NCBI GenBank assembly: GCA_016795345.1
Contig: JAEUHO010000347.1
Coordinates: 1-34,518 of the forward strand
From: Planctomycetia bacterium
Lineage (GTDB): Bacteria; Planctomycetota; PLA2; JAEUHO01
DNA length: 34,518 nt
Direction: 5' to 3'
How positions within the stretch are numbered: the first letter of the stretch is position 1; every line of letters begins with the position of its first letter. Shown piece after piece: positions 5,485 to 23,216 of the stretch. A model generated the notes under the pieces. That model worked only from the letters and a program-made list of their open reading frames with translations, was not told the DNA's origin and made no database searches. A program made the position numbers and the translations under genes.

Positions 5485-8418
5485 TCAGCGCGGCACGTGC
5501 ACCTTCACCACGTCCTCGGGCTTGCCTTCGCCGTGGCACACGTCGCACGCCTCCTGACCGTTCGGAGCGGTCTGCGTGTCGATGTGCGCGTGCGCGGCCG
5601 TCGAGTCGTGGCAGGAGCCGCAGACGAAGCCCCAGACGCGGGCCGGGACGGACCCGACCGCCGGGTGCGTGCGGTTCTGCGGGGCGTGCCAGGCGTCGTT
5701 GCCGTGGCAGCGATCGCACTGGCGGACGGCGCCCGGCCAGGCCGGGAAGACCACCGCGTCGTACTTGTTCCGGCTCGGCGGGGTGCCGTTGCCGAGGACC
5801 TCGTACGTCGCGCCGTTGGTCAGCTCCTCGCCCATGTGGATCTTGTGCAGCATCTCGCGGAAGCCGATCGAGACGCCGACCGTGTCCACGTAGTTCGCCG
5901 TGTTGGTCTTGAACCGGCCCGCGTCCTCGGCGGTGGAGTCGCCGTGGCACATGATGCAGGTCTTGAAGCCGCGGCGGCCGCCGCCGTGGAACCACATGTC
6001 GTTGTGGCAGGTGTAGCAGTTCGACTGGTCGGAGATGACCTCGTACGGCGCCAGCGTGGAGGCGTTGCCGACGAGGAAGTCGACCGCGCCCGCGTCCGAC
6101 GTGGACGGGTACGACTGGGTCTCGCCGTAGAGCACCACGGGGTTGTTCACGCGGGCGTAGCAGTCGAGCGTGTACGTGCCGTCCACGATCGCCTTGTTCT
6201 TCCACTCGCCGGACGACTCGCCGATGTCCGGCGTGTCGTTGAGGGGCGCGGGGAACTCGGTGGGCATCACGAAGTCGGCCCAGTAGGTCGCGATCGCGAT
6301 CTGGCCGGCGACGAACTGGTCGCTCGACTCGGCGATGTTGCCGCCGGACACGGCCCAGTTGCCCGAGGCCGAGACGGACGTCAGCGTGATCTCCTGGATC
6401 GTGGCGCCGGCCGCGTGGGCGAACCGGAGCTGCTGCTTGATCCACAGGCGGTTGCCCTCGCCGACCGCCACCTGGGCGTACTCCTCGGTGGGCAGGCCGT
6501 CGTCGATCACGACGTAGTCCGGGTTCGCGAAGTTCGCGATGCTCGCGACGTCGAAGTAGTTCTGGCGCTTCTGCGCCGCGACCGTCGCCGTCGTGCTGCC
6601 CGGCGTGCCGCCCGCCGCGGACCGGCGGTACAGCGTCGTCAGGTTCGTGGCGAGCGCGCCGCGCGCGGTGTTGAACGTGTCGAGGCCGACGGTGCCGACG
6701 CCGACCTTCTCGAGCAGGATCTGCTCGGGCACCAGCATCGTGTACACGCCGCCGACCGGCGACGCCCACGCGGGGTGCGCGCTGGCCGGGTTCGAGTTCA
6801 TCGGGACGCCCGAGTTGACGACCAGGTTGTAGTTGCTGGTCGGGCCCGCGATGATCATCGTGAAGCTGCCGGCGGAGGCGCCCGACGGAGGCGTGTGGAA
6901 CGCCGTCAGCGGGACGTCGAGCCCCGCGTTCGGGCCGTTCGTGTACTGGATGCGGAACTTGACCTGGATCTTCTCGCCCGGGTCCACGGTGTTGTCGGAG
7001 TTGTGGGTGCCGGCTTCCTTCACCTCGGACACGTTGACCGCGATCTCCGGGGCCTGCGCCGGGTTCAGGATCGGGTGCCGGTGCGCGTCCTCGACGGACA
7101 GCGGGGTGCCGCTCGCGTCGTGGCAGCCGGACAGCGCGCACGTCTCGTTGCCCTTGTTGGCGCCCATGGTCTGCAGGTTCGCCGTGTAGGGCTTCGTCCA
7201 GTCCACGTCGTCGTGGCAGGAGCCGCACGAGTGGCGGGCGGGCTGCGACTTCCACAGGTTGCCCTGGGCCGGCGCGGTCTCGGGGCCCGTGCCGTCCGGG
7301 TCGCCGTGGCACTTCTCGCAGGAGACGACGCCCGTGCGGACGAGGTTCTCCTTGCCCTGGTTCGTGGACGAGAGGGCGGCGTAGCCCGCGTCACGCGGCA
7401 TCTGGATGTTGAACGCCGGGAAGACCGGGAAGGCGGCCTCGGAGAGGTCGATGATCGAGTTGTTGAAGCCGACGTACTGCAGCGGGATGCTCGCGCCGTA
7501 GACGCGGGCGCCGGCGTTGTCGGTCGTCAGGCCGTTCACCGACGGGAGGTGCTTGCCGTTGTGGATCTTGTGGATCATCACGCGGAAGTCGACCGAGACG
7601 CCCGGCGTGCCGCCGGCGAATGAGGCGTTGTTGCGGTCCTCGGCGCCCGACGTGTGGCAGAGCAGGCAGAGGTCGACGTCGACGCGCGAGCCGCCGTGGG
7701 CGCGGACCGTCGTGTGGCAGACGTTGCAGTTGGCGTCGGCGACCACCGCGCGCGGGGTGACCGTCGTCGCGCCGCCGTACAGGAAGTTGTGGGTCGCGGC
7801 CCCGGCGTCGCGGAAGTTCGTGTTGTCGAACTCGTAGTTCGCGACCAGCTGCAGGCCGATCGTGTAGGTGCCGTCGAGCAGCGCCTGGCCGGTCAGCTCG
7901 CCGTCGATCGCGCCGAAGGACGTCGTGTCGTTGAGGGGCGCGGCATAGACCGACGGGAACGCGGGCAGGTAGTAGCCCCACTCGCCGCCGCCGAGGTAGA
8001 ACGCGTTCGCGACGACGTTCGTCTGCGGGACGATGACGCGGTTGTAGTTGTTCGTCGGGCCGGACACGTAGATCTGGCCGTTCGTCATGTTCGGGACGTA
8101 GAGGTCGGTCCCGTCGTTCGCCTTCGCGGTGAACTTCACCCCGATGACGTCGCCCGGGAGGATGTTCCCGTTGGCGCCGGTGCCGCCGACGATCCCCGTG
8201 ATCACGAGGTTGCAACCCGGCAGGCGGTCGTACTCGCCGACGGTCAGGACGGTCTCCGCCGGCAGCGGCTGGGCCGGGGGCAGCGTGCCGCCGCCACCAC
8301 CACCTCCGCCTCCGCCACCACCACCACCGCCACCACCGCCGCAAGCCGTGAAGCCGCCCGCCATGGCGATCGCTGTCAGGATCGCGAGGGTCGAGCGGCG
8401 CATCGTGGACATCGTCAT
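5485..8418 (-). CDS. OmcA/MtrC-family decaheme c-type cytochrome lipoprotein (paralog 1)
   Basis: 977 aa. Family members sit on the outer face of the outer membrane and pass electrons to extracellular acceptors. The signal peptide MTMSTMRRSTLAILTAIAMAGG leads to lipobox FTAC (Cys26), then 18 glycines. The layout matches the family: beta domain (about 50-225), five hemes (about 231-405), a second beta domain (about 430-750), five hemes (about 755-962). Nine sites are CXXCH. The fifth is CX4CH (CALSGCH). The hallmarks VSVDFRVMIHKIHNGKHLPS and IGFREMLHKIHMGEEL are present. No CX8C disulfide pair, as in Shewanella MtrC, is seen. ATG 8418 has AGGAGG just upstream; the frame is open further up but has no such support. 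It is the distal member of a tandem pair with its own leader and terminators. The in vivo acceptor is unknown. Confidence 0.93.
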   Translation of the reverse strand: MTMSTMRRSTLAILTAIAMAGGFTACGGGGGGGGGGGGGGGGGGTLPPAQPLPAETVLTVGEYDRLPGCNLVITGIVGGTGANGNILPGDVIGVKFTAKANDGTDLYVPNMTNGQIYVSGPTNNYNRVIVPQTNVVANAFYLGGGEWGYYLPAFPSVYAAPLNDTTSFGAIDGELTGQALLDGTYTIGLQLVANYEFDNTNFRDAGAATHNFLYGGATTVTPRAVVADANCNVCHTTVRAHGGSRVDVDLCLLCHTSGAEDRNNASFAGGTPGVSVDFRVMIHKIHNGKHLPSVNGLTTDNAGARVYGASIPLQYVGFNNSIIDLSEAAFPVFPAFNIQMPRDAGYAALSSTNQGKENLVRTGVVSCEKCHGDPDGTGPETAPAQGNLWKSQPARHSCGSCHDDVDWTKPYTANLQTMGANKGNETCALSGCHDASGTPLSVEDAHRHPILNPAQAPEIAVNVSEVKEAGTHNSDNTVDPGEKIQVKFRIQYTNGPNAGLDVPLTAFHTPPSGASAGSFTMIIAGPTSNYNLVVNSGVPMNSNPASAHPAWASPVGGVYTMLVPEQILLEKVGVGTVGLDTFNTARGALATNLTTLYRRSAAGGTPGSTTATVAAQKRQNYFDVASIANFANPDYVVIDDGLPTEEYAQVAVGEGNRLWIKQQLRFAHAAGATIQEITLTSVSASGNWAVSGGNIAESSDQFVAGQIAIATYWADFVMPTEFPAPLNDTPDIGESSGEWKNKAIVDGTYTLDCYARVNNPVVLYGETQSYPSTSDAGAVDFLVGNASTLAPYEVISDQSNCYTCHNDMWFHGGGRRGFKTCIMCHGDSTAEDAGRFKTNTANYVDTVGVSIGFREMLHKIHMGEELTNGATYEVLGNGTPPSRNKYDAVVFPAWPGAVRQCDRCHGNDAWHAPQNRTHPAVGSVPARVWGFVCGSCHDSTAAHAHIDTQTAPNGQEACDVCHGEGKPEDVVKVHVPR

Positions 8419-8482
8419 GGGGCTCCTCCTGCCGTTCCCCGGGCGCTCGATCGATAACGGGCCCCGGGGCGTCGGACTTCCT

Positions 8483-8529
8483 AAGCACGCCGCGTTCCGA
8501 ACCGTCCCCCGGCGTGCTTGCAGATCGTA
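8483..8529 (-). promoter_or_regulatory. Promoter-like -10 and overlapping inverted repeat upstream of decaheme paralog 1
   Basis: On the minus strand a -10-like TACGAT (8529-8524) lies about 105 nt before the start codon. Just after it, perfect 10-bp inverted arms (8510-8519 and 8483-8492, AAGCACGCCG and its complement, 17 nt apart) begin at the expected transcription start. This could be an operator or a leader hairpin. The -35 is not convincing. Confidence 0.4.
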
Positions 8530-8830
8530 ACACCCTGAAGACAATCGAGTTGCACCCATTGAGCTCGTGGGAAGCGGCAGGGGCAACCGGCCCGGGCGTG
8601 GGGAGAGGCCCACCGGTGGGGAGCCATCCCCAGGGACCTGGCAGGCGGGCGGCCGCGCCAGCCGATCGGCCCGGACACCGGAGAGGCCGGGGACCTGGGA
8701 GGCAGGGTGGTGGACGTCGGAACCGTCGGGGGTCCCGGGGCTGCGTCCGTCGCCGGCATGTGGCCGGCGCCCCTCGCCTGGGTCGGCCGCGGACCTGCCG
8801 CCGCCCGTGCCGGACCGCCCCAAGAGCGAA

Positions 8831-8858
8831 GGTCCGCCGTCGCGACCGACGGCGGACC
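8831..8858. terminator. Perfect 12-bp hairpin after decaheme paralog 2
   Basis: Arms GGTCCGCCGTCG (8831-8842) and CGACGGCGGACC (8847-8858) with loop CGAC, about 67 nt past the stop at 8925. It acts as a second stem after the nearer hairpin at 8898-8917. No T-tract. Confidence 0.55.
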
Positions 8859-8897
8859 TCCGAGGTCCTGATTCGCGGGGTCTTCCGACCGGGCTGA

Positions 8898-8917
8898 CGG
8901 AGGGGGCGGCCCCTCCG
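8898..8917. terminator. Short hairpin just after decaheme paralog 2
   Basis: An 8-bp stem, CGGAGGGG (8898-8905) and CCCCTCCG (8910-8917), with a 4-nt loop, 7 nt past the stop codon on the minus strand. The first of two stems at this gene end. Confidence 0.45.
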
Positions 8918-8924
8918 CCGACGA

Positions 8925-11900
8925 TCACCGCGGAACGTGGAACTTCACGACGTCCTCGGCCTTCCCCGGCCCGTGACACGTCGCGCAGGACTCGACACCC
9001 GTCACGGTGGCGTTGGTGTCGAGGTGGGCCGTGGCCGCGTCCGAGTCGTGGCACGAACCACAGCTGGCACGCCACGTCCGGACCGACACCGAGGCCGACG
9101 GGTGGACCCGCGCGGCCGGCTGCTGCCACGACGCACTCGTGCCGTGGCAGGAGGCGCAGTCACTCACGCCCCCGGTCGTCAGCGGGAACCCGACCTCGTC
9201 GTACTTCGCGGGGTAGGGGACGCCGAGGAAGACGCCGATCGCGACGTACTCGTGCCCCTTCGAGAGCTCCATCCCCATGTGGATCTTGTGGAGCAGCGTC
9301 CGGAAGTCCATCGTGACGCCCTGCGTCGGAGGGATGAACCCCGGCGAGTAGCTGTTGAATGTGTACCGCGGGCCGTCCTCGAGCCCGGAGACAGCGTGAC
9401 AGCTCAGGCACGTCGCCAGGCCGCGGCGCCCGTTCCCGTGGAACGTGAGGTCACCGTGGCATCGATCGCAGGCGGCGGCGTCCGCGATGATCGCGCGGGT
9501 CGTCAGGGTCGTCGCGGTGCCGTAGAGGAACTGGATCGTCGCCGGCGGCGAGATCATCCGGTACGACGTCGACTCGTTGGCCGGCGCACCGAGGGTCGCG
9601 ACGGTGAAGTCCCGGTTGACCCAGAACCCGATCGAGTAGGTCCCGTCGAGGAGCGGCAGGCCGATCCAGTCGCCCCAGAACTGGTCCAGCGCGTCGGAGT
9701 CCGCGACCGGCGCCGGATACACCGCCTGGAGCGTGTCGCCGGGGAAGCGCCGGAACCCGAACCGGAGGTCCGTCCGGTACGAGACGACGATCGGGTTGCC
9801 GGTCGTGCCCGCGAGCACGGTCAGCTGACCCGTCGCCGGGTCCGTGACGGTGTACGACACGCCCTCGCGCATCGTCGTCAGCGTGACCTCTTGCAGTTGC
9901 GCGCCCACCGCGTGGGCGAACCGCAGGGGCGTCGTGAACCAGAACCGGTCGTTGACGCCGAGGTCGAGCCCGGTCACGTCGTCCGTCGTCTGGATCCGAC
10001 CGACCTGGGCGTACTCCTCGACGCCGAGGCCCGAGTCGATCACGACCCGGTCACCGACCGCGACGCCGGCCAGCGCCGCGGCGTCGGCGACGACATAGCG
10101 GCCGTACAGGGTCGAAGCCACGGCGATCGGGGCCCCGGCCTGCGTCGCCGTGCGCTCGAACACCGTCTGCCGCCCCCAGTAGAGCGGAAGGCTGGAGACG
10201 TTCACCGTCGCCGGGAGCGAGGCGGCGACCGTGCCGACGCGTTCGAAGCTGATGTCCGTCGGGATCGGCATCGTGTAGGACGGCGCCGTCGGGTACACCT
10301 CGAGATAGAAGCGGTCGCCCGCGGCGAAGTCGGTGCCCGTGTCGTTCACCCGGAGCGACACGCCGAGCGCCGTCACGTCGAGGAAGCCGCCGGACGGGAC
10401 GACCTGCCCGGTGAGCGGCGTGGCGAACGTGTTGGCCGCCCGATCGTAGGTGACGACGTCGAACGTGTTCACGCCCGTGAAGACCACCGCGTAGACCCGC
10501 CGCAGCGCGGTCGCGCTGATCACGACGTTCGTGACGGTGCCCGCGCCGGTGAAGGCGGGCGACTTCCGGAACGAGAGCGTGTCGAACAGGGTCGCGTTGG
10601 CCGCCAACATCTGGGGGTTCTCGGTGGGCCCCGTCACGATCGCCTGCCCACGGACCGTCGAGTGGAGGGAGACGTCCGCCAGCGCGTCGTTCCTCACCGT
10701 GAACGTCGCCGTGATGTTGTCGCCCGCCTGGTGACGACCGGACGGACCCGTGCCGCCGCCGACGGCGCTCGCGTCGAGGTTGATGCCCGTGTTCAGGGCC
10801 GGGTTCAGGTATGGGTGCAGGTGCGCGTCCCGCACGGACAGCGGCGTCCCCGACGGCGTGTGACAGCCGGACAGCGCGCAGGTGTCGTTCGTCTTCCCCG
10901 CGCCCATCAGCTGCCCGTTCGCCTGGTACGGCTTCGTCCAGTCGAGGTCGTCGTGGCACGACCCGCACGCGGCGCGCGACGGCCGCGTCTCGACGTTCGC
11001 GGCCTGCGCCGCGCCGTCGTGACAGCTCCCGCACGCGACCACGCCCGCGCGCATCTGGTCCTCGAGGTGCTTCTGCGCCGCGGCGAGGCCGGTGTAGCCC
11101 AGGTCCTTCGGCATGGGCCCGTTGCCGCCGTAGCCGGTGTATGTCGTGCCCGTGACGTCGAAGAGGTACGCGACGTACGCGCTCGGCATCACCGGGTACC
11201 CGACCTCGGAGACGTCGATGACGTGATCCTGGAACCCGACGTACTGCAGGGGCTTCGGCGCCGTCGCGTAGTTCCGCGTCCCGTCCACGTTCGTGCCGAC
11301 GCCGAGCACCGACGGAAGGTGCTTGGCGTTGTGGACCTGGTGGATCATCGCCTTGAAGTCGACCGAGACCCCCGGCGTGCCGCCGGCGGTCGCGTTGTTG
11401 CGGTCCTCGGCCCCGGCGGTGTGACAGAGCAGGCAGAGCCGGACGCCGACGCGGACCCCGCCGTGCGCGCGCACCTCGGTGTGGCACTTCGCGCACGCGT
11501 CATCCGTCACGACCTCGCGTACGTCGAGCGGGCCGGCGGCGCCGACCCGGAAGTCGAACACGCTCGAGCCGGCGTCACGGAAGGACGTTTCGCCCACCTC
11601 GATCGTGCGGAAGAGCTCGATGCCGACCGAGTACGTGCCCGCCACGATCGGCTGGCCCGTGCGCTCGCCGTCGTCCACGCCGAACGACGGCGAGTCGTTC
11701 ACCGGCGCGGCGAACGTGGACGGGAAGGGCGACGGGAAGGCATAGACCCAGGTGGCGTCGCCGGCGTAGTACGCCGACGTGAGGAAGTCGAACTGCGGGA
11801 CGACGACGCGCTGGTAGTCGTCCGTCGGGCCGGAGACGAAGATCGAGCCGTAGTCGAAGTCCGCGAGGGCCAGCGGCGCGCCGGCATCGTCGCGCAGCTC

Positions 11901-12179: not shown

Positions 12180-12600
12180 GGTGACCCTCCATCACGTTTC
12201 GAGCGACCGCCCTCGACTCGGGGGCGCCGTACGCGCTCAAGGACCGCACCGGTCCGGCCCGAACCACGCCGCGATGTGGGCGTGCGTCCGGGGAGCGAGA
12301 TGACCTCGTCGCCGGCCGTCCGCCGACGAGTCGGGAGCGGCACCGCAAGTCTCGGCCCAATGGTCCATGGGCCCCGTCGCACGCGGAATCGAGGCGGGCA
12401 GAGCCCCTCGTGGCGCCGATGCATCGGATTCGGTGCGCCACACCCCCGACGGCATGGGGACTCATGCCCATCGCACCGAGGATTCCGCCGCAGCGGGCGC
12501 CCCGAAGCGCGGCCCCCGCGCACGCCCGCAGCCCGACATGGACCGGGCCGGGCGCCCCCCTCGGGGGACGCCCGGCCCGGTGCGGCCTCGGGGCCTCGCG
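12180..12600. other. Intergenic region upstream of decaheme paralog 2
   Basis: About 420 bp. It holds the terminator of the 15-heme gene (12542-12581), the GGAGG of paralog 2 and a weak inverted repeat (CACGCC 12265-12270 / GGCGTG 12279-12284) after CGAACC, loosely like the leader repeat of paralog 1. No convincing -10 was seen, although separate transcription of paralog 2 is likely given the terminator. Confidence 0.6.
12542..12581. terminator. Long hairpin after the 15-heme gene
   Basis: Arms ACCGGGCCGGGCG (12542-12554) and CGCCCGGCCCGGT (12569-12581) pair perfectly. Inside them five C pair with five G, leaving one bulged A. It lies 19 nt past the stop of the 15-heme gene on the minus strand. 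A strong terminator candidate without a T-tract. Confidence 0.65.
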
Positions 12601-13857
12601 TCAGCGGTGGCAGTGCTGGCACTCGCTCCCGTTGTCGATGTGCGGGACCGGCGGCGCGCCGCCGGGGCCGGGGCCCGCCGGCAGGTGGCACGTCCGGCAG
12701 TTCATGCCGGGGACGTGCCAGGCGGGCTGGTCGGTCGCCGTCTCGTGCTGCGGCTCCTCGAAGTGGCACACGCGGCAGCCCTGCTCGCGCGAGATCGGGA
12801 AGTGGCACTCGCCGCAGTGCGTCGAGGGGTTCGCCGTCCAGCGGCCGCGGTGGGACAGCGGGGCGGTCTCCTCGTGGCACCGGACGCAGTAGTCCGTCTG
12901 GTGGCAGACCGCGCAGCTCTTCCGGTCCATGGCCGCCATCACGCCGTGGGTCTTGAGCCGCCACATCGTGTCGTGGCTGCGCGGCATCTCCTCGCGGTGG
13001 CAGCGGTCGCAGAAGATCTGGTCGTCGTGGCACATGTCGCAGCGCGCCTCGGCCTTCGCGCGGTCGTTCGCGGCGATGGAGCCGTGGCGCTCCTTCCACA
13101 GGTGCTTGTGCGACGCCGGCGGCGTCTTGGCGTGGCAGTCCGTGCAGAAGGCCTGGTCGGCGTGGCAGAGGTCGCAGTGCTGCTCAGCGCGGTCCTGCGC
13201 CGTGGCCGCGAGCTTGCCGTGGTCCGCGCGCCAGTTGGTGAGGTGCGACGCGGGGGCGACCTCCGCCCGGAGGTCGCGGTGGCAGGTCTGGCAGTCGTTC
13301 TTCCCGCCCTTCTGCTGGTGGCACTGCATGCACGCGGCCATCGTGAACCGGACGCCGACGAAGCGCTCCGCGCCCTTCATCTCGCCGTGGCACGGGAAAC
13401 ACGACGCCGAGTCGGTCGCGTGCTTCGCGTGCGAGAACTTCACGTCGCCGCCGTAGGAGGCGATCGCCTTCGTCCACTTGGGGGCCCCGTCCGCCGTGAA
13501 GAACGAGTTCTTCACCTTCTCGGCGTCCGGCTTCTTCTCGTCCTCCTCGTCGTGGCACTCGGCGCAGGTCGCCTCGTACGTCATCTTGCGCGGCTCGAAG
13601 GGCTCGCCCTCCTTCCGCTCCTTCATGTGGCAGTCGGCGCACTCGAGGCCCTTGTCCATGTGGGCCGGGTGCGGCATCCGGGGCCCGGGGGCCGCCGCGA
13701 ACGTGCCGGGCACGACCCGCGCCGCGCCCGCGGGCGGGGCGCTGACGAGGTTCGACGTGAGCGACGGGAGGGGGATCCTCCCGCGCGCACAGGAGAGCAG
13801 CACGATCCCGGCGACCACCGGGACCGCCCAACGCAGGGTCTTCTTGGCGGGGCCCAT
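12601..13857 (-). CDS. 15-heme c-type cytochrome lipoprotein
   Basis: 418 aa from ATG 13857 (GGAG about 8 nt upstream). Lysine-rich n-region, hydrophobic stretch and lipobox LLSC (Cys23) predict a lipoprotein. Fifteen CXXCH sites run from CADCH (73-77) to CQHCH at the very C-terminus, with no other recognisable domain. The spacing is short and regular, often as pairs (CDLCH..CTDCH, CDMCH..CDRCH, CAVCH..CVRCH, CGECH..CRVCH), which suggests an extended heme wire. Frequent extra His residues (SHKHLW, SHLTNW, SHDTMW) could be distal ligands for bis-His hemes. It starts 11 bp after the beta-barrel gene, so barrel and cytochrome are made together and probably form one complex at the outer membrane, analogous to MtrA with MtrB. 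No close named homolog is recognised. Confidence 0.88.
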   Translation of the reverse strand: MGPAKKTLRWAVPVVAGIVLLSCARGRIPLPSLTSNLVSAPPAGAARVVPGTFAAAPGPRMPHPAHMDKGLECADCHMKERKEGEPFEPRKMTYEATCAECHDEEDEKKPDAEKVKNSFFTADGAPKWTKAIASYGGDVKFSHAKHATDSASCFPCHGEMKGAERFVGVRFTMAACMQCHQQKGGKNDCQTCHRDLRAEVAPASHLTNWRADHGKLAATAQDRAEQHCDLCHADQAFCTDCHAKTPPASHKHLWKERHGSIAANDRAKAEARCDMCHDDQIFCDRCHREEMPRSHDTMWRLKTHGVMAAMDRKSCAVCHQTDYCVRCHEETAPLSHRGRWTANPSTHCGECHFPISREQGCRVCHFEEPQHETATDQPAWHVPGMNCRTCHLPAGPGPGGAPPVPHIDNGSECQHCHR

Positions 13858-13868: not shown

Positions 13869-15485
13869 TCAGAACTCGAACCGGGCGCCGGCCTGGACGG
13901 TGACGAAGGTGTCCACGTCGTCGTCCTCGAGGCGCACGGACAGGTCGAACTTCCAGCGCCCCCACGGGGCGTAGGTGGCCTTCACGTACCCGTTCCACGA
14001 GTCGAAGCGCTCGCTGGCGGTGTACAGGTCGGTCCGGTAGAGCGAGTAGTCGATGCCGCCGACGAGCTTGAACACGTCGCTCGGCTGGTACCGGGCCTCG
14101 AAGGCGCCGGCGAACGTGTCCTCGTCGTCCGACACCCAGTAGTCGGCGGTCACCGAGAACGACCAGCAGGTGCGCGGCCAGCCCTCGACGGCGAGGGTGG
14201 CGAAGAACCGCCCGAACTCGCGGTTGAAGGCGCCCTCGTCGTCGTCGTCGTAGAGCGCGCGGCCGGTGGCGCCGACCTCGACGGTCGTGCAGTCCGACAG
14301 CGACTTGGCGACGGCGAAGTGCGCGTCCCAGAAGGGCTGCAGCGTCTCCTCGATCGCGTAGTACGGGTCGAGGTCGTAGACGAGGGCGTTCTCCTCCTCG
14401 AGCTGCGTGCGGAACGAGCCGCGGAACGTCGCGTTGAGCCGCGGCGAGAACCCGGTGCCGGACAGGCCGAGCTCGCGGGGGTCGTCGTCCACCTGCTGGT
14501 ACCACAGCCGCGCGTTCGTCCACTCGCTGATGCGCTGGCGCAGCTCGGCGGTGATCAGGTTGTTCGTCGGCCGGCCGTAGAACTCGTTCTCGTCCTCGAC
14601 GTAGACCCAGTCGAGGCCGAAGTCGCCGCCGCGCCAGGGCCGCAGCGCGATCCCGGCGCCGCCGATGAAGTCGCCCTCGGGCGAGGCCTCGTAGATGTGG
14701 GCCGGGACGCCGGCGAACGCCGACGCCTGGAACTCGGCGCACCCGGCGGGCGCGGTGCGGACGTGCACGCCGTCCACGAGGAACGGGTACCCGCCGTCCA
14801 CGTCCTGCCGGCCGACGCGCACGCGCTCGAGGAAGCCGCCCGCGAACCGGTAGCTCGCGTACAGGTGGTAGAGCCGCCCCGTGACCGCGGAGTCGAACGT
14901 GTCGTCGACGCCGTCGAAGACGTAGAAGCCGCTGTTGTCCTGGTCGCCGTCGAGGTCCTCGGCGAGCCGGCCGTAGAACGAGCCGGACCACCCGAGGTCG
15001 CTGTCCTTGCGGTAGGTGACCGTCCCGTACTCGTACAGGTCGTTGTCGCTCTCGCCGTCGCCGCTGCGGGAGCGGAACCGGATCGCGATCGAGCCGTGGA
15101 AGCAGCACGGCTCCGTCCACGGCCGGACCGCGACCGGCGCGTCGGCCGGGAGCACGCCCGCGACGGCCGACTTCTCGGCCGCCGTCGGCGCCGGCGGCGG
15201 CGTCGGCTTCGGGACGTCGGCCGGCAGCACCTCCGGCTTCGGCGCGTCGGCGGGCTTGGCCTCCGCGGGGGGCGGCGGCTCCGTGGCCGGCGCAGGCGAC
15301 TCGGCGCCCGACACCCCGGCCGCCGGCGCCGCGGGAGCGGACGGCGGCGCCGGCGGTTCGGCAGCGGGCGCTGCCGGAGCGGCCGGCGGAGGCGGCGCGT
15401 CCTCGGCGCGGGCGGTCCCGGCGCCGGACACGAGCACGACGGCCCCGAGGACCGCCGCGCACCAACGACGTGTTGTCGAACCCAT
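13869..15485 (-). CDS. Outer-membrane beta-barrel protein, putative porin partner of the 15-heme cytochrome
   Basis: 538 aa. Signal peptide MGSTTRRWCAAVLGAVVLVSGAGTARA, probably cleaved before EDAPPPP. Then about 100 residues of Pro/Ala-rich linker (to about 130), then about 400 residues of alternating amphipathic strands (SIAIRFRSRS, WSGSFYGRLAED, HLYASYRFAGG, FDLSVRLED). The last residues, VTVQAGARFEF, carry the terminal Phe recognised by the BAM machinery. The closely linked 15-heme gene points to a porin-cytochrome conduit. The barrel domain is much smaller than MtrB (about 26 strands), so 16-20 strands are more likely here; this is an estimate. GGAGGG lies about 13 nt before ATG 15485; a GTG one codon earlier is an alternative. 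Homology to MtrB/PioB could not be established by eye. Confidence 0.8.
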   Translation of the reverse strand: MGSTTRRWCAAVLGAVVLVSGAGTARAEDAPPPPAAPAAPAAEPPAPPSAPAAPAAGVSGAESPAPATEPPPPAEAKPADAPKPEVLPADVPKPTPPPAPTAAEKSAVAGVLPADAPVAVRPWTEPCCFHGSIAIRFRSRSGDGESDNDLYEYGTVTYRKDSDLGWSGSFYGRLAEDLDGDQDNSGFYVFDGVDDTFDSAVTGRLYHLYASYRFAGGFLERVRVGRQDVDGGYPFLVDGVHVRTAPAGCAEFQASAFAGVPAHIYEASPEGDFIGGAGIALRPWRGGDFGLDWVYVEDENEFYGRPTNNLITAELRQRISEWTNARLWYQQVDDDPRELGLSGTGFSPRLNATFRGSFRTQLEEENALVYDLDPYYAIEETLQPFWDAHFAVAKSLSDCTTVEVGATGRALYDDDDEGAFNREFGRFFATLAVEGWPRTCWSFSVTADYWVSDDEDTFAGAFEARYQPSDVFKLVGGIDYSLYRTDLYTASERFDSWNGYVKATYAPWGRWKFDLSVRLEDDDVDTFVTVQAGARFEF

Positions 15486-15686: not shown

Positions 15687-15695
15687 GGCCGGGGG

Positions 15696-16337
15696 CTAGT
15701 GCTGGCCCTTCAGCGGGACGTGATCGTGGATCTTGTCCTTCGCGTCCTTGGCCTTCTCGAAGTCGAAGGCGTAGTCCTTCGGCATCGTGGGGCACTCCTT
15801 GACGTGGCAGGGCATGCACGTCTCGGCCTTCGGGATCACGGCGCCGAGCTTCTCGATCTCCGCGCGCTTGAAGTCGGGGTGATCCTTCTTGTACGGGCCG
15901 TACAGGCTGCCCGGGCCGTGGCAGGCCTCGCACGTCACGCCCTGGTTGAGCTTCATGCGCTCTTCCTCGGCGGGCGTGCAGGCGGCGCCGGCGGCGGGCG
16001 GGGCCGGGTACCCGGACTCGGTGCCGTAGCCCGTGGTGTGGCACTTCAGGCACTTCGGGTCCTTCGTGTAGTCGGCCTTGGGGTCGAGGCCGCCCGCCGT
16101 CTTCTTCTCGGCGGCGACGTCGGGCTTCAGGCTCTCGAACGTCTTGGCCATGCCCGTCTTCTTCCACGACGAGTGCTGCTTGAAGTGGCACTTCTTGCAG
16201 GCGTCGGCACCGACGTAAGCAGGCTTGGGGTCGTCGGCCTGGGCCGTCGGGCGGGTCGAGAGCAGACCGCCGACGAGCCCGGCCGTCGCGATCACGCTCG
16301 CGACGAGCCAGAAGGAGCGCACCGAGGGATGACGCAT
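15696..16337 (-). CDS. Tetraheme cytochrome c554-like protein, periplasmic
   Basis: 213 aa with a signal peptide (1 to about 34, ending TAQA/DD). Four CXXCH sites: CKKCH (47-51), CLKCH (96-100), CEACH (136-140), CMPCH (174-178). The start of the mature protein, YVGADACKKCHFKQHSSWKKTGMAKTFE, is the family signature of cytochrome c554 (Nitrosomonas-type, also tetraheme and of similar length). The family carries electrons in the periplasm and some members reduce nitrogen oxides. Here, between a quinol-oxidising membrane cytochrome and an outer-membrane conduit, a shuttle role is likely. Two further cysteines (120, 182) are not in heme motifs. ATG 16337 has GGAG just upstream. It probably has its own promoter and terminator. 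Confidence 0.88.
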   Translation of the reverse strand: MRHPSVRSFWLVASVIATAGLVGGLLSTRPTAQADDPKPAYVGADACKKCHFKQHSSWKKTGMAKTFESLKPDVAAEKKTAGGLDPKADYTKDPKCLKCHTTGYGTESGYPAPPAAGAACTPAEEERMKLNQGVTCEACHGPGSLYGPYKKDHPDFKRAEIEKLGAVIPKAETCMPCHVKECPTMPKDYAFDFEKAKDAKDKIHDHVPLKGQH

Positions 16338-16406
16338 GGAGATCTCCGAGGCCCGGCCCGGTCGCCGGCGGCGTTCGCTCGCGCCGGGGACCGTCGGGCC
16401 CTACGA

Positions 16407-16412
16407 ATCCTA
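16407..16412 (-). promoter_or_regulatory. -10-like TAGGAT upstream of the c554-like gene
   Basis: TAGGAT on the minus strand, in an A/T-richer patch with GTTTTCC about 16-20 bp further upstream, gives a leader of about 65 nt to ATG 16337. The hexamer recurs before other minus-strand genes of the window. Confidence 0.35.
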
Positions 16413-16528
16413 CATCGGTCGTGGGTCGGAAAACGAGAGGCGTCGCGCCCCACGACCCCGCGAACGAAGGGCCGTAAGACGCGAATCAGGCATGGTTTCA
16501 GTACGTAGTTCCGATTTCCCCCCGGGGG

Positions 16529-18676
16529 TCAGGTGACGAGGCCGTAGATCATGAGCGCGAGGAGCGCGAGCGCGATCGAGAGCATCGTGCCGCCGACCAC
16601 GTAGGCGCGTCGGACGAGGCCCGCGTCCGGGGCGGGCAGGGCCTCGCGGTCGAGGCGCCCGTCGGCCTTCATCCGCTCGTACTCGGCGGGCCGCTCGAGC
16701 CTCAGCTCCTCCTCGGGGATGCGGCCCGTGAAGATGATCGGGTCGAGCGGGAACTTCCCGGGCCGCAGGTTGGCGTGGAAGAAGTGCACGCTGAAGATGA
16801 AGCCCGTCGCGAGGAGGGCCTCGTAGCTGTGGAGGATGTGGGCGAGGTTGACCGCCCAGCCCGGCAGCACGGCGGTGGACGCGATCGGGAACCACATGAT
16901 CAGGCCGGTGATGCCGATGAAGCCGACGCCCCACACCTCGGCCCAGAAGTCGAACTTCTCCCAGTAGGTCCACCGGTCGAAGTGCGGCCGCTGGCCGCCC
17001 TTGAAGAACCAGCGGAAGTTCGCGCGCACGTCCTGGACGTCCTTCCACCGCGGCAGCATCGTGTGCGGGCCCTTGAAGAGGCCCTTCTCGCCGCGCAGCA
17101 TGCGGCGGGCGATGTGCACGAGGTAGACGGCGAAGTACGCGAACGTGACCACGCCGCCGAGGCGGTGCAGGAACCGGACCGAGGCCGGCCCGCCGAGCAG
17201 CCCGTACAACGTGTGCCCCCACGCGGTGTCGTGGAACCGCAGCGGCATGCCCGTCAGCGCCAGCAGCAGGAACGTCGACGCCACCGTCATGTGGAGGATG
17301 CGGTAGAAGGGCGGCCACCGCTGGTACCACCGGCCGCCGAGGTGGCTGTGGTGGGGCATGGGCTCGCGGATCGCGCGGAAGAACCAGAGCAGGATGTGCA
17401 GGCCCGCGAGGCACCACACGACGACGATCAGGGTCGTCATGATCGTGCGGGCCCAGTAGAGGACGGGCCACTTCTCCTTGTCGTCGGGGTTCGCGTGCAC
17501 GGCATAGGTCGCGAACGCGTCCGTCGCGCCCGGGTGGCACGTCGCGCACGTCTTCGTGCGCGGCCCCGGGTGGTGCACCGACGACCTCGGGTCGGACGTC
17601 GGGAGGATGTCGTGGGCCGTGTGGCAGTCGGTGCACGACGCCACGCCGCCGCCGCCGAGGTCGGAGACGCGGCCGTGGTAGGTGTTGCGGTACGAGCCGA
17701 GCTTCGACTCGTGGCACTCGCCGCAGGTGTCCATCACCTGGCGCTTGAAGTCGGCCTCGGTGAGCGGGTCGCGGACGTGGTGAGGCTTGTGGCAGGTCGT
17801 GCAGGTCGCGGGCTCCTTGCCCACGGCGTTCTTGTCGGTCGCGTGCCGGGCCGTCGTCCCGTGCACGCTCCGCTGGTACTGCGCGAGGACGCCGGCGTGG
17901 CACTTCCCGCACGTCGCGCTGACGTTGTCGGGGTGCACCGGCGAGGCGGCGTCCTTGACGCCCACCACCTTGTGGCCGCCGTGGCACGTGACGCAGGTCG
18001 CGGTGACCACCAGGCCCGACTTCAGCAGGCCCCGGCTGTGCGTGTCGTCGGTGTACCGCTCGGCCATCAGCTTCGCGACCTCGGCGTCGCCGCGGGCGTC
18101 GGGCGCGAAGTGGCACGAACCGCACGTGAGCGGCACGTTGAGCGGGTACAGGCGCGAGGCCGGGTCCGTCGACTTGCGGATGTCGTGCGCGGGGCCGTGG
18201 CACGCGACGCACGAGGGCGCGCGGCGCTCGGCGGGCGGGGGCTTCTCGCCCTCGGGCGGCAGCTCGGCGGCCTTCTTGTGCGACGACTCGAGGACCTGGG
18301 CGGCCTCCTTGTCGTGGCACTCCGCGCAGCCGACGGTCTTCGCCTCCTTCGAGTGCGGCGCGGTCTCGAAGTCGAAATGGCACTCGGTGCAGTCCTTCTT
18401 GCCGTGCACCGACGCCGCGTGGGCCTTCGGGTCGACGAGGTGCTTCCCGGCCTTCGCGGGGTCGGCGTGGCACGCGAGGCAGCCGTCGTTCGGCGACGGC
18501 TTCGCCGGCGCGGCCGGCGGCGCGTCGTCGTCGCCGGCGCGCGCGAGGGCGCCGCGCACCGACGCGGCGACGATTGCGACGAGGAACACGAGCAGCCCCG
18601 CGCCCCACGCCCGCCGCGCGCGCCCGCCCCGTCCCGTCGCGCCCCCCGCCGCCGACCCGGTCACGCGTCCGCCCAT
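16529..18676 (-). CDS. Undecaheme c-type / cytochrome b membrane fusion, CbcL-like quinol oxidoreductase
   Basis: 715 aa from ATG 18676 (GGGAGG about 8 nt upstream). An N-terminal membrane anchor (about 25-45) is followed by a periplasmic domain with 11 CXXCH sites (66-381). The membrane domain has helices near 411-433, 457-479, 504-525, 581-600, 611-633 and 689-713. Conserved His in RILHMTV, RFLHRLGG, YLVHIARR and NLAHILHSYEA could ligate b-hemes. WTYWEKFDFWAEVWG is typical of formate dehydrogenase gamma / hydrogenase cytochrome b proteins. Fusion of a multiheme c domain to such a diheme b domain is the plan of Geobacter CbcL (nine c-hemes), which takes electrons from menaquinol for metal reduction. 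By analogy it would move electrons from the quinol pool to periplasmic cytochromes. It could instead serve a hydrogenase- or formate-like donor, but no such genes are nearby. Confidence 0.85.
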   Translation of the reverse strand: MGGRVTGSAAGGATGRGGRARRAWGAGLLVFLVAIVAASVRGALARAGDDDAPPAAPAKPSPNDGCLACHADPAKAGKHLVDPKAHAASVHGKKDCTECHFDFETAPHSKEAKTVGCAECHDKEAAQVLESSHKKAAELPPEGEKPPPAERRAPSCVACHGPAHDIRKSTDPASRLYPLNVPLTCGSCHFAPDARGDAEVAKLMAERYTDDTHSRGLLKSGLVVTATCVTCHGGHKVVGVKDAASPVHPDNVSATCGKCHAGVLAQYQRSVHGTTARHATDKNAVGKEPATCTTCHKPHHVRDPLTEADFKRQVMDTCGECHESKLGSYRNTYHGRVSDLGGGGVASCTDCHTAHDILPTSDPRSSVHHPGPRTKTCATCHPGATDAFATYAVHANPDDKEKWPVLYWARTIMTTLIVVVWCLAGLHILLWFFRAIREPMPHHSHLGGRWYQRWPPFYRILHMTVASTFLLLALTGMPLRFHDTAWGHTLYGLLGGPASVRFLHRLGGVVTFAYFAVYLVHIARRMLRGEKGLFKGPHTMLPRWKDVQDVRANFRWFFKGGQRPHFDRWTYWEKFDFWAEVWGVGFIGITGLIMWFPIASTAVLPGWAVNLAHILHSYEALLATGFIFSVHFFHANLRPGKFPLDPIIFTGRIPEEELRLERPAEYERMKADGRLDREALPAPDAGLVRRAYVVGGTMLSIALALLALMIYGLVT

Positions 18677-18807
18677 GGCGCACCTCCCGCGAGCGGGGCC
18701 GGCCGCGCCGTCGCGTCTCGGGACGCTCGGGCCGCCACGGTCGGCGCGCGCTCGCCGTTCCCGCGCGTCGCGCGCGACCTCGGTCGCGCGCGGCCCACGG
18801 GAGTCGG

Positions 18808-18813
18808 AGTATA
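18808..18813 (-). promoter_or_regulatory. -10-like TATACT upstream of the CbcL-like gene
   Basis: TATACT (18813-18808, minus strand) is five of six to TATAAT and stands out in the GC-rich context. It lies about 130 nt before ATG 18676 and just beyond the terminator hairpin of the ccsA gene. No good -35 was found. Confidence 0.4.
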
Positions 18814-18835
18814 GGCCTCGAACCGCTGCGCGCTG

Positions 18836-18860
18836 CCGCGGGAACCGAGCGTTCCCGCGG
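18836..18860. terminator. Terminator hairpin abutting the ccsA stop codon
   Basis: A perfect 10-bp stem, CCGCGGGAAC (18836-18845) and GTTCCCGCGG (18851-18860), with a 5-nt loop, starting at the base next to the stop codon (18861-18863, minus strand). It separates the maturation operon from the CbcL-like gene. Confidence 0.65.
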
Positions 18861-20867
18861 TCAGGACGTCGTGGAGGCCGAAGCCCCGCTTCCACGACGG
18901 AAGAGGTACGAGAAGCCCGCCGCGAGGACGAGCGCCTCGACCACGTAGAAGATCGTGAGCGTCGTGATCACGCCCTGCGTGAAACCGTACGCGTGGAGTC
19001 CGATGCCGAGGTGATTCACGTGCCACCACGAGAAGGCGACGATCGTGCCCTGCGCGATCGTGGCCATCGCGATGCCGAAGGTCTTCAGGTAGCCGCCGAG
19101 CCGCCCGTGCAGGATCGCGAGCTGCGCGAGGCAGATCATGAGGGCGCCGTTCTCCTTGGGGTCCCAGCCCCAGAAGCGGCCCCACGAGTCGTTGGCCCAG
19201 ATGCCGCCGAGGATGGTCCCGACGACGCTGAAGAGGAGGCCGAACGCGAGCATCCCGTACGTCATCTTCCCGGCCGACCGGTAGAACGCCTCGTCGCCGG
19301 CCCGCAGGCCGAACGTGCGCCCGAGGACCGTCACGTGCGCCAGGGCTGCGGCGACGAGGCCGCCCGTGTACCCGATGGCGATGCACGTCACGTGCAGCGT
19401 GAGCCAGTAGTTCGTGTCGAGCACGGCCACCAGCTGCGGCATGGTGTCCTCGCCCTTCAGCGACTCGTAGCTGTTCGCGAGCATGAGGCCCAGCGCCCCG
19501 AGGACGGGGGCGAGCGTCAGCGCGATCCCGCGCCGGTCGAACAGCTCGGCCACCGCGCACGCGGCGACGCCGAGGGCCGAGATGAAGAGCACCGTCTCGT
19601 ACAGCGTGCTGATGGGCGGGCGCTCGCGCAGGATGCAGCGCATCCAGATGCCGGCGACCTGCAGCACCAGCGCGGCGAGCAGCACGGTCCACGCGGCGCC
19701 CCGGACCCAGCGGTTGCGCACAAGCCACCCCGCCGCGACCAGGAGGAACGCGAGGATGTAGAGCCCCGCGCCGCGGTGGAACGGGTCGAGGCGGTTGAGC
19801 GACACCTCGAGGGGGATCTTCTCGTACTCGCCGCGCGTGCGGGTCATGCGCTCGGCCGTCGCCGCGACGTCGCGCAGGTGCGCGACGAACGCCGCGCGGT
19901 CGCCGACCGACCCGCCCATGCCCGCCAGGCCGAGCATCAGGGCCTGGATCTCGGGCGGCAGCGTGATGCCCTCGGTGACCGCCTGCAGCGCCTCGCCCGG
20001 CGTGAACCACGTCTCCTGCTCCGAGACGGGCCCGGGCGGCGGGATCATCGCCACGGCGTTCGAGGCCTCGGCCAGCTCGCGCAGGCGCGCGAGGAGGCTC
20101 GCGACGCCGGGGTCCGACGCGACGGGGCCGGCGCCGCCGCCGTGGGGGTCGCCGCGCGGGAGCACCCGCGACAGCGACGGCGCGCGCGCCAGCACGTCGG
20201 CCACGCGCACGCGCTCCTTGCCGTCGAACACCGCCTTGAGCGCGGGCGACGCCGACACGTCGAGCTCGGCGCGGCCGAAGTCGACGAGGTGCGAGAGCCG
20301 CTCGAACGTCGTCGTGCCGCGGTAGAGGTCGACGACGCCGTGCTGGACGGGCGTCAGCCCCTTCGCGTCCTTCTTCATGTAGACGAGCGCCAGCTCGCGC
20401 AGCTTGGCGGCCGCGGGCCGGAGCGCGGCGTACGAGTACAGGTCGCGCTTCTTCTTGCCCTCGTGGGCGAGGCCCACCGCGTCGAGCACCTCGTCGTTCT
20501 CGACGAGGAAACACGGGTGCGTCTCGGCGACCGACGGCCGGAACACCACGTCGAGCAGCCACGCCGTCGGCGTCAGCTTCTCGCCCGCGGCGTCCTTGGC
20601 CGAGCGCTTGTGGGCGATGCCGAGCAGCGTGTACGTCGCGAACGTGTCGAGCGGCTTCACGCGGCCGCCGTCCTGCACGGGCAGGCGCGCCGCGAGGTCG
20701 AGGACCTCGTCGCTCCACGGCCCGGCGCCGGCGCCCGAGGGCGCGGGCGCGGCGGGGCCGTCGGCGGCGGCGCGGCCCGCGAGGAGCGGCGACGCGAGGC
20801 CCGCGACGAGCACGAGGACCAGCGCGGCGACGGTCGCGGGGCGGCGGAGGGCGGGCGGACGGGTCAT
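18861..20867 (-). CDS. ccsA: Cytochrome c biogenesis protein CcsA (ResC), long form
   Basis: 668 aa. System II heme-handling protein: with ResB it delivers heme to the periplasm and attaches it to CXXCH apocytochromes. The C-terminal membrane half has the WWD heme-binding signature (IWANDSWGRFWGWDPKENG, near 560-578) and candidate flanking His residues (TLHVTC near 492, WHVNH near 615). The N-terminal 390 residues are a signal peptide plus a large periplasmic domain beginning LPVQDGGRVKPLDTFATYTL, which makes the protein nearly twice the classic CcsA length. Similar long forms are known in several Gram-negative phyla. It starts inside the resB stop (ATGA overlap), so translation is probably coupled. 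It would serve the roughly 50 heme sites encoded downstream. Confidence 0.92.
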   Translation of the reverse strand: MTRPPALRRPATVAALVLVLVAGLASPLLAGRAAADGPAAPAPSGAGAGPWSDEVLDLAARLPVQDGGRVKPLDTFATYTLLGIAHKRSAKDAAGEKLTPTAWLLDVVFRPSVAETHPCFLVENDEVLDAVGLAHEGKKKRDLYSYAALRPAAAKLRELALVYMKKDAKGLTPVQHGVVDLYRGTTTFERLSHLVDFGRAELDVSASPALKAVFDGKERVRVADVLARAPSLSRVLPRGDPHGGGAGPVASDPGVASLLARLRELAEASNAVAMIPPPGPVSEQETWFTPGEALQAVTEGITLPPEIQALMLGLAGMGGSVGDRAAFVAHLRDVAATAERMTRTRGEYEKIPLEVSLNRLDPFHRGAGLYILAFLLVAAGWLVRNRWVRGAAWTVLLAALVLQVAGIWMRCILRERPPISTLYETVLFISALGVAACAVAELFDRRGIALTLAPVLGALGLMLANSYESLKGEDTMPQLVAVLDTNYWLTLHVTCIAIGYTGGLVAAALAHVTVLGRTFGLRAGDEAFYRSAGKMTYGMLAFGLLFSVVGTILGGIWANDSWGRFWGWDPKENGALMICLAQLAILHGRLGGYLKTFGIAMATIAQGTIVAFSWWHVNHLGIGLHAYGFTQGVITTLTIFYVVEALVLAAGFSYLFRRGSGASASTTS

Positions 20868-22090
20868 GCGGCGCTCCCGGCGGCGGCGCGACGACGCGAC
20901 TCGCGCGCGATGTAGCGGACGAACTTGAACACCACGAAGTGGACGAAGAGCCCGAGCGCGATCACGTAGCAGGCGTACTTGGGCACCTGGTCGCTCGGGT
21001 TGCGCACGACGGAGAAGGTCGAGAACAGCGGCGTGCCGGGCGCGGCGCCCTCGGGCCCCCAGCCGGACTGGTACAGCGTGTACCCGTGGTGGCGCAGGGG
21101 CGCGTTCATCGTGATGTGCGACGCGGCGTCCACGCCGTCCTCGGTGCGGGTGACGTACGACGAGAACCGGCGGGCCATCCCGATGCCCGGGTGGTCCTCC
21201 TTCACGAACCGGTCGAGCGTCACGCGGAACGGCAGGGTCCAGCGCACCTTGCGGAGCTCGACCTCGAAGCGGCGGCCGTCCTCCTCGTGCACCCACGGGA
21301 GGCCGTGCGCGCCCCACAGCAGCGTGCGCGCGCGGACGGACCCGCCGCCCTTCCCGGCGAGCCCGACGAGCGCCCCGGGCAGGTTGCGCTCGGCCTCCTT
21401 CTCGGGCTTGCGGGGGTCGAAGCGCCAGCCGTCCACCGCGTCGGCGCCGCCGGCGCGCGAGGGCTCGACGTTGCGGTGCCAGCGGCTCACGACGACGTCG
21501 AACGGGAGCCGCGCCGACGCGAAGCGCGCCGTGTCCTCGGGCTCGAGGTCCATCAGCCGGCGCGCCGGGAGCACGAACTCCGTGGCGGCCCCGCCGTCCT
21601 TGCGCTCGCGGACGACGATCTCCCAGTCGTGGTAGCTCGCGAACTCGTCCGACGACTGGCCCTCCATGAGGGTCATCTGCCCCTTGTCGGAGAGCAGCCA
21701 CTCGACGTAGCTGCCGGCGAGCAGCAGGAGGATGCCGAGGTGCGCCACGAGGATGCCCGCGGTCTCGTACCGCTTGCGCATCCGCACGACGCCGCCCACC
21801 ACCAGGTTGACCGCGAGGAGCGTGAGCACGGGCGTCGCGCCCGGCAACGGGATCGAGAGGAACCCGATGTCGTGGATCACGAACCACGACTCGAAGTACT
21901 TCACCTGCACGTCGAGGAGGCTCATGTGCGCCTGCTCGAGCGTCCCGAAGAACGTCAGCACGAGCAGCACGAGCAGCAGGGTGATCGCCAGGGCGTAGGA
22001 GCCCAGCGCGGCCACGACGCGTCGCGCGACGAGGGAGAGGGTGCCGGCGGCGGAGGTCGCCGGGGCGGCGGGGAGCGGGCCGTCACTCAC
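20864..22090 (-). CDS. resB: Cytochrome c biogenesis protein ResB (Ccs1)
   Basis: 408 aa. Partner of CcsA in system II. Three N-terminal membrane helices (about 30-49, 80-103, 109-130; the third contains AHLGILLLLAG with a conserved-type His), a large periplasmic beta-rich domain (about 135-370) and a final helix (about 374-395). Segments typical of the family include FFGTLEQ, MNAPLRHHGYTLYQSGW and FSVVRNPSDQ. It starts at GTG 22090, eight bases inside the end of the preceding lipoprotein gene, and its stop overlaps the ccsA start by four bases, so the three genes form a tight operon. Role: holding or presenting apocytochrome and heme during ligation. Confidence 0.93.
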   Translation of the reverse strand: MSDGPLPAAPATSAAGTLSLVARRVVAALGSYALAITLLLVLLVLTFFGTLEQAHMSLLDVQVKYFESWFVIHDIGFLSIPLPGATPVLTLLAVNLVVGGVVRMRKRYETAGILVAHLGILLLLAGSYVEWLLSDKGQMTLMEGQSSDEFASYHDWEIVVRERKDGGAATEFVLPARRLMDLEPEDTARFASARLPFDVVVSRWHRNVEPSRAGGADAVDGWRFDPRKPEKEAERNLPGALVGLAGKGGGSVRARTLLWGAHGLPWVHEEDGRRFEVELRKVRWTLPFRVTLDRFVKEDHPGIGMARRFSSYVTRTEDGVDAASHITMNAPLRHHGYTLYQSGWGPEGAAPGTPLFSTFSVVRNPSDQVPKYACYVIALGLFVHFVVFKFVRYIARESRRRAAAGSAA

Positions 22091-23216
22091 GGAAGGACTC
22101 GCAGAAGGCGCGGAACCGGTCCTGTTCGCCGCGCACCTCGGCGGCGGGACCCGTCATCTTCACGAACACCATGTCGCCGGGCCGCGGGAGCGCCATGCCG
22201 AGCAGCATCGAGCCGGCGGCGCCCGCGCCGCCGCTCATCCCCGCGTACGCGCCCTCGACGGCGAGGAACACCGCGGTGCCGCCGAGGACCTTGGCGCGGG
22301 GCAGCGCCTCGAACTCGGCGTCGGTGAGCGGCGCCGCCCCCATCTGGCCGCGCCAGCGGTCGAGGTTGGCGCGGACGCCGCCGGCCGTCCCCTTGAGGAT
22401 CGACACGGCGACCTCGCTCGACGGCGCGCCCGTGGGCACGAACGTCGCGACGCGCATGGAGCGCGCCGGGCCCTGCGTCCACCCCGCGGGGGCCGTCCAC
22501 TGGAACGGCGCGGCGGGCGCGGGCGGCTCGGCTCGCGTCGCCGCCGCGGCCCCGGACCCCGGGGCGATGGAGGCCGCGAGCTCGAGGAACCGCGTCACCT
22601 CGGCGTCGACCGACGCGGCCGGTCCCGTCAGCTTGAGGAACGCCGTCGCCTGCGGGAGCTCGGCCACGAGGCCCACGAGCTTCGCGCCCTCGACGGTCGC
22701 CCCGCCGCCCATCCCGACGTACGTGCCGGTCAGCTCGACCCACCGCGCGGGACGCCCGAGCAGGGTGCCCTTCGTCGGCAGCGCGGCGACCGCCGCCTCG
22801 TCCGTCGGCTCGAGCGACATCTGCTTCCGCCACCGGTTGACGTTGGCGACGAACCCGCCGCCCGACGCCGGCAGCGTGCTGAACGTGCACTCGGTCCCCG
22901 GCGCCGCGGTCACCTTCCAACCGGCCGCGCGCATGGGCGCCGCGGGCAGCGGCTCCCAGCCCGCGGGCGTGGACCACGTGTACGCGACGCCGGACGACGC
23001 CGCGCCGCCCATCGCCCCGTGCGGGTCGGCCCCGTGCGGATCGCCCGGCATCTCGCCGCGCATCCGCTGGTCGAGCGTCGAGCGCGGCGCGGGCACGCCC
23101 GCGTGCCCGCGCTCGCGGACGTCCTCGATCTCGGTGACCTCGCTCCCGCCGCAGCCGGCCGTCGTGAGGAGCAGGGCGAAGGCACCCGCGCGGAAGAGCG
23201 GAAAGCGGACGGTCAT
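22083..23216 (-). CDS. Lipoprotein with two tandem copies of a PAGW domain, first gene of the resB-ccsA operon
   Basis: 377 aa from ATG 23216. The signal peptide MTVRFPLFRAGAFALLLTTAGC ends in a lipobox (TAGC, Cys22). After a Gly/His/Pro linker come two related domains of about 130 residues: one begins YTWSTPAGWEPLPAAPMRAAG, the other FQWTAPAGWTQGPARSMRVA. Shared features are an NxxRWRxQM helix (NRWRKQMSLEPTD, DRWRGQMGAAPLTD), an ALP segment, a (T/A)YxGMxGG turn and a final KxTGPAAxVxxExxRFxxxxxS helix. I recognise no named family. The 8-bp overlap with resB suggests a link to cytochrome c maturation or to the respiratory complex, for example as a periplasmic chaperone, but that is inference from position only. 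Confidence 0.8.
   Translation of the reverse strand: MTVRFPLFRAGAFALLLTTAGCGGSEVTEIEDVRERGHAGVPAPRSTLDQRMRGEMPGDPHGADPHGAMGGAASSGVAYTWSTPAGWEPLPAAPMRAAGWKVTAAPGTECTFSTLPASGGGFVANVNRWRKQMSLEPTDEAAVAALPTKGTLLGRPARWVELTGTYVGMGGGATVEGAKLVGLVAELPQATAFLKLTGPAASVDAEVTRFLELAASIAPGSGAAAATRAEPPAPAAPFQWTAPAGWTQGPARSMRVATFVPTGAPSSEVAVSILKGTAGGVRANLDRWRGQMGAAPLTDAEFEALPRAKVLGGTAVFLAVEGAYAGMSGGAGAAGSMLLGMALPRPGDMVFVKMTGPAAEVRGEQDRFRAFCESFRE

Follow-up and report, generated by a model that had tools for sequence, protein, structure and literature searches.

Nine genes on the minus strand of a contig from an uncultured planctomycete probably encode an electron conduit across the cell envelope. It would be of the Pcc (porin-cytochrome) kind and combine a CbcL/MtoC-like protein on the quinone side with an Mtr-type terminal at the surface. 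This reading rests on the gene content, the conserved linkage, the predicted barrel, the lipoboxes and the family of the decaheme proteins. Each of the part families is known already, as are Pcc pairs in anammox bacteria. What looks new is the exit, i.e., a Pcc pair coupled to an OmcA/MtrC-type decaheme, with the CbcL/MtoC-like entry on the other side.

The locus and its genomic context

The window, by which we mean the whole stretch of DNA analysed (34,518 nt), is an entire contig of a 4.9-Mb genome that is 88% complete and consists of 614 contigs. Analysis of open reading frames with Pfam and NCBIfam placed the nine genes within positions 5485-23216 (Table 1). The order of transcription runs from an unknown secreted lipoprotein through ResB, CcsA, an 11-heme/cytochrome b fusion, a c554-type cytochrome, a barrel and a 15-heme lipoprotein to two decahemes. 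The five heme proteins have 50 heme sites in total (10+10+15+4+11), made up of 48 CXXCH motifs and one CX4CH motif per decaheme. In a scan of the whole window, more than one CXXCH per open frame was seen only in these five proteins. The first-pass annotation had described about 50 c-hemes and all of the protein classes it named on one strand of what looked like a non-proteobacterial genome; the site count, the family scores over cut-offs and the Planctomycetota host bear this description out.

Table 1. Genes of the locus, with positions in the window
Feature	Position	Strand	Evidence
MtrC1, OmcA/MtrC decaheme lipoprotein, 977 aa	5485..8418	-	TIGR03507 225 bits; PF22113 135 bits
MtrC2, OmcA/MtrC decaheme lipoprotein, 1084 aa	8925..12179	-	TIGR03507 218 bits; PF22113 133 bits
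15-heme lipoprotein, proposed trans-outer-membrane wire, Pcc-type partner	12601..13857	-	15 CXXCH; lipobox LLSC
Outer-membrane beta-barrel, porin-like, Pcc-type	13869..15485	-	AlphaFold 22 strands; terminal Phe
Tetraheme c554-type cytochrome	15696..16337	-	PF13435 66 bits, cut-off 20.8
11-heme c-type domain + b561/FdnI-like membrane cytochrome b, CbcL/MtoC-like	16529..18676	-	11 CXXCH; PF01292 34.5 bits, cut-off 30.1
CcsA, system II heme ligation, long N-terminal extension	18861..20867	-	PF01578 73 bits, cut-off 29.9
ResB (Ccs1), system II maturation	20864..22090	-	PF05140 71 bits, cut-off 24.6
Secreted lipoprotein, two similar halves, no known family	22083..23216	-	Lipobox TAGC; overlaps resB

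The flanks (positions 1-5300 and 23500-34518) hold ordinary genes only, for a class I tRNA synthetase, an ABC transporter, a cyclophilin, RsmB, a sugar isomerase-like protein, and HEAT/VWA and Tex proteins. A scan for promoters and terminators gave nothing informative in the GC-rich DNA. Among named genomes, the related contigs are mostly from Planctomycetota; a search of viral contigs found no relative.

We also observed further large multiheme genes elsewhere in the window genome (contigs C547, C243, C58 and C278), one frame having 21 heme motifs. Partial matches to PF18582, a hydrazine synthase alpha domain, were seen on contigs C40, C57 and C276 as well as in the same-genus relative; the host is presumably a non-anammox planctomycete.

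The gene order proposed at first pass was looked for in related genomes. All nine genes were found in identical order in a genome of the same genus (G001), while in G003 every component was present on one contig in a rearranged order. Four other genomes (G009, G005, G014 and G016) kept together the cytochrome b fusion, the c554-type gene, the barrel and a 15- or 17-heme protein. The neighbourhoods of relatives, which could have shown the genes to be normally unlinked, showed linked parts. An origin by chance or artefact was rejected, since the nine genes keep their order within the genus and the core pair of barrel and multiheme partner is adjacent in every neighbourhood that we read (see below). 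The locus is real, conserved and well linked, and probably encodes a conduit.

Maturation genes

Both ResB and CcsA scored over their Pfam cut-offs, as expected of system II cytochrome c maturation; against TIGR03144, CcsA scored 104 bits, which is under the cut-off of 187.6. The two proteins would attach the hemes of the conduit. That they are dedicated to the hemes of this locus is only possible, since a second ResB is present elsewhere in the genome. The gene at positions 22083-23216 was missing from the earlier list of parts and has no match in Pfam or NCBIfam. Its product is conserved, with 56% identity in G001 and 43-44% in G003, and the gene adjoins ResB/CcsA wherever it was seen.

The barrel and its multiheme partner

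The barrel protein has a signal peptide, a Pro/Ala-rich linker and a barrel of ~415 aa. The AlphaFold model of the 22-strand barrel had a pLDDT of 82 and a pTM of 0.74, and the terminal Phe was invariant in 13 of 13 homologs aligned over the whole barrel. The fold search returned barrels of many unrelated kinds (AlgE, ushers, Occ channels) with a TM of ~0.56 at most; the model thus appears to support an outer-membrane barrel and suggests no closer relative. A PDB sequence search with the barrel profile gave no matches.

For the 15-heme protein the AlphaFold model was too poor for use (pLDDT 46). In the alignment of its homologs, the core heme sites were invariant and the extra hemes appeared as lineage-specific insertions, while the lipobox Cys was invariant in all 13 sequences aligned.

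The barrel family was found in 80 of the 392 Planctomycetota genomes sampled, and 73 barrel neighbourhoods were read. In all 73, a multiheme partner follows directly downstream of the barrel on the same strand. In 48 loci the partner carries 13 hemes, and in another 21 it carries 14-19; the four remaining ones have 2, 8, 12 and 12 hemes, some being cut by the contig end. A lipobox was detected by script in 68 of the 73 partners and by eye in four of the other five.

A porin gene adjoining a multiheme cytochrome gene is the mark of a Pcc system, and the 22 predicted strands fall within the range of 18-22 published for Pcc porins (PMC4245776). The two-gene pcc cluster of Kuenenia was reported to encode a porin and a cytochrome with 12-14 hemes and 338-344 residues, values pooled with those of Anaeromyxobacter (Shi et al. 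2014, PMC4245776). In anammox genomes we observed the barrel and partner as a two-gene pair. For example, family f43, where hydrazine synthase alpha was present in five of the eight genomes tested, has a homologous barrel with a 14-heme partner, and in G100, a member of this family with a 4.41-Mb genome on one contig, the partner has 14 hemes and 338 residues. From the homologous pair, the matching heme number and length, and the genomes that bear hydrazine synthase, we infer that this is likely to be the Kuenenia pair itself. In Kuenenia stuttgartiensis, as in our locus, the porin gene is directly followed by that of a c-type cytochrome (there with 14 hemes), but its neighbours there include neither a decaheme nor a c554 or cytochrome b fusion gene. 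The barrel/15-heme middle of the locus apparently belongs to the known Pcc kind. It had been called unfamiliar at first pass, a description that gives way to a precedent: a Pcc-type pair widespread in Planctomycetota, apparently the Kuenenia pair of 2014.

Outside Planctomycetota, a barrel and 13-heme pair was seen in Candidatus Coatesbacteria (L050), with no other heme genes on that stretch. A wider barrel profile matched a barrel of Mucispirillum, a gut member of Deferribacterota (E ~1e-24), which is followed by a 5-heme protein and fits the published spread of Pcc. Mucispirillum genomes (L055-L065) have several related barrel/5-heme copies each, at one locus two of them in tandem.

The decaheme exit

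MtrC1 and MtrC2 both scored over the OmcA/MtrC cut-off of TIGR03507 (209.3 bits), so that the MtrC-like exit of the first-pass annotation was supported. Both have a 5+5 heme layout and a lipobox, and in each of them heme 5 is a CX4CH site. Since nearly all relatives have an ordinary CXXCH at the aligned position, both look like genuine heme sites with a two-residue insertion. The 5+5 layout was present in all 25 of the relatives' decahemes examined, mostly with a lipobox and then a collagen-like linker. Right behind the lipobox Cys, MtrC1 and MtrC2 have 16-18 consecutive Gly, in the place where relatives have collagen-like GxxGxxG. The decaheme tree formed one clade except for the G003 and G051 proteins, a long-branch warning applying to both.

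Co-occurrence of the barrel, the partner and the decaheme

OmcA/MtrC-family matches were found in 34 of the 392 genomes. The barrel was present in 29 of them compared to 6.9 expected (Fisher p 1e-17); no barrel was found in the five others, drafts being incomplete. In 24 genomes no more than 12 kb separates the barrel from MtrC, both being on the same strand; the distance is mostly 1.4-1.6 kb, which is just the space for the partner gene. The order of barrel, multiheme lipoprotein and ten-heme OmcA/MtrC protein was seen in 22 of the 73 loci, in several families. Over these 22 loci, Spearman correlations of the distances, with species relatedness ignored, were 0.64 for barrel and partner, 0.49 for partner and decaheme, and 0.34 for barrel and decaheme. 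Such values fit a joint evolution of the three proteins.

MtrB (PF11854) was over the cut-off in just one of the 34 genomes (G019, on a different contig and beside an MtrA-like gene), and an MtrA-type protein (TIGR03508) also in one (G134). The window genome had no match to PF11854 (MtrB/PioB) and, at E 1e-15, none to TIGR03508. With MtrB and MtrA nearly absent from the genomes with MtrC, another conduit must serve the decaheme, and in most of the 34 genomes the Pcc-type pair is the only visible route under the MtrC-type cytochrome.

The neighbouring genes could also be separate modules: the barrel and the 15-heme protein would form a conduit on their own, like the anammox pair, the decahemes would work with other partners, and the vicinity would reflect shared regulation. 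Many genomes, anammox ones included, do hold the pair without MtrC, with other multiheme genes or none behind it, so that the decaheme is not obligatory; the weak distance correlation of barrel and MtrC points the same way. We still consider separate modules improbable, given the three-gene order conserved in several families and the strong co-occurrence of barrel and MtrC in genomes with almost no MtrB. We lean slightly towards a hybrid conduit as a common feature of Planctomycetota. Under an OmcA/MtrC-type surface cytochrome, a Pcc-type barrel of 22 strands and a lipoprotein wire of 13-19 hemes, anchored in the membrane, would stand in for MtrAB.

Comparison with known conduits

Membership of the locus in MtrCAB was rejected, as MtrA and MtrB are both absent. 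A diverged MtrCAB, with the barrel as MtrB and the 15-heme protein as an enlarged MtrA, would account for an exit that is truly of the MtrC family. In addition, one barrel homolog matched PF11854 (E 0.0014), the G001 barrel scored a sub-threshold 19 bits against the MtrB profile, and the 15-heme profile aligned over its N-terminal part with 6r2q chain A (E 1.4e-5), which we take to be MtrA. On the other hand, this profile matches other multiheme proteins better, ActA among them (E ~1e-21), and the 15-heme protein itself scored 21 bits against the TIGR03508 cut-off of 192. MtrB was absent from the first 50 structure matches of the barrel, whose 22 predicted strands compare with 28 predicted motifs for MtrB (PMC4245776). 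The best published counterpart being the Kuenenia Pcc pair, we regard a diverged MtrCAB as very improbable.

With Shewanella MtrCAB the locus shares the family of the surface decaheme lipoprotein and its 5+5 hemes, while it differs in having another barrel and a 15-heme wire. OmbB-OmaB-OmcB of Geobacter sulfurreducens has the same order of porin, inner and outer multiheme cytochrome, as well as a porin of the 18-22-strand class. Its outer cytochrome is OmcB, whereas that of the window is of the OmcA/MtrC family; OmaB has 8 hemes compared to 15 and a lipobox in the inner cytochrome of the window, so that the likeness is one of gene order and porin size class. A porin, multiheme cytochromes and a b-type protein of the inner membrane are also encoded together in the PCC3 and PCC4 clusters of iron oxidisers (He et al. 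2017, PMC5566968), and PCC4 subgroup II includes Planctomycetes (PMC5566968). By the published description, however, the median heme numbers of the PCC3 cytochromes are 34 and 21, PCC4 is without an outer cytochrome, and both clusters have a separate inner-membrane protein with five helices (PMC5566968).

MtrCAB is known in three phyla, Planctomycetes not being among them (PMC8805035). A potential for iron reduction and porin-cytochrome genes were reported for a few Planctomycetota genomes by Suarez et al. (PMC10732223). In the literature searched, which did not extend to subscription papers and preprints, no account of a Pcc pair joined to an OmcA/MtrC exit came to light.

The quinone side and the direction of electron flow

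The fusion protein combines an N-terminal multiheme c-type part with a C-terminal HydC/FdnI-like cytochrome b, a layout by which it is likened to CbcL/MtrH/MtoC. With 11 CXXCH motifs and a PF01292 score over the cut-off, the CbcL-like entry of the first-pass annotation held up. The similarity of the C-terminus to FdnI was weak (32.5 bits), and His residues in the membrane part were invariant across six homologs. Simple hydropathy of the C-terminal half gave five peaks, two of them overlapping, compared to the six transmembrane helices of CbcL/MtrH/MtoC. CbcL has 9 hemes, compared to 11 here; the CbcL/MtrH/MtoC family spans 15 phyla, including two planctomycete sequences, and 3-23 hemes (PMC6295460). 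The c554-type gene beside the barrel is conserved in the nearest relatives, and its tetraheme product is a probable periplasmic carrier.

In the conduit proposed here, the fusion protein would exchange electrons with the quinone pool and hand them on through its periplasmic hemes. The tetraheme carrier would probably relay electrons from the fusion protein to the 15-heme lipoprotein. The latter may bridge the outer membrane, lodged inside the 22-strand barrel or lying against it, and two OmcA/MtrC-type decahemes, presumably on the outside, would finish the path to a mineral, an electrode, a shuttle or a partner cell.

We consider outward flow likely, given two tandem exits of the MtrC type in the locus, while the Mtr clusters for Fe(II) oxidation are often without MtrC (PMC4245776). 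In the alternative of electron uptake, Fe(II), Mn(II), a cathode or a partner cell would feed electrons inward through the conduit to the quinone pool, and oxygen or some other oxidant would finally accept them; this seems unlikely for the same reasons. Nevertheless, homologs of CbcL/MtrH/MtoC occur in iron oxidisers as well as iron reducers, with both directions of flow implicated (PMC6295460), and the window genome has three heme-copper oxidase genes. The first-pass annotation had called the candidate locus complete and described one route from quinol to the cell surface. These terms exceed the evidence, as flow either way is implicated for the CbcL/MtrH/MtoC family and nothing in the locus fixes one direction.

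Implications

Published descriptions treat the Mtr and Pcc conduits as having arisen independently, with a barrel, a wire and a surface cytochrome particular to each. The 22 planctomycete neighbourhoods suggest that a surface cytochrome from one system's family has been joined to the other system's wire, which would make conduits modular across systems. If the hybrid conduit is true, the lipid anchor in nearly every homolog would mean that the wire is held unlike MtrA.

Electrode-dependent ammonium oxidation has been measured in the anammox group (PMC7188810). The uncharacterised anammox pair now stands in a family for which a barrel structure has been predicted and which offers obvious candidate partners. 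Many uncultured planctomycetes would join the organisms for which extracellular respiration is likely.
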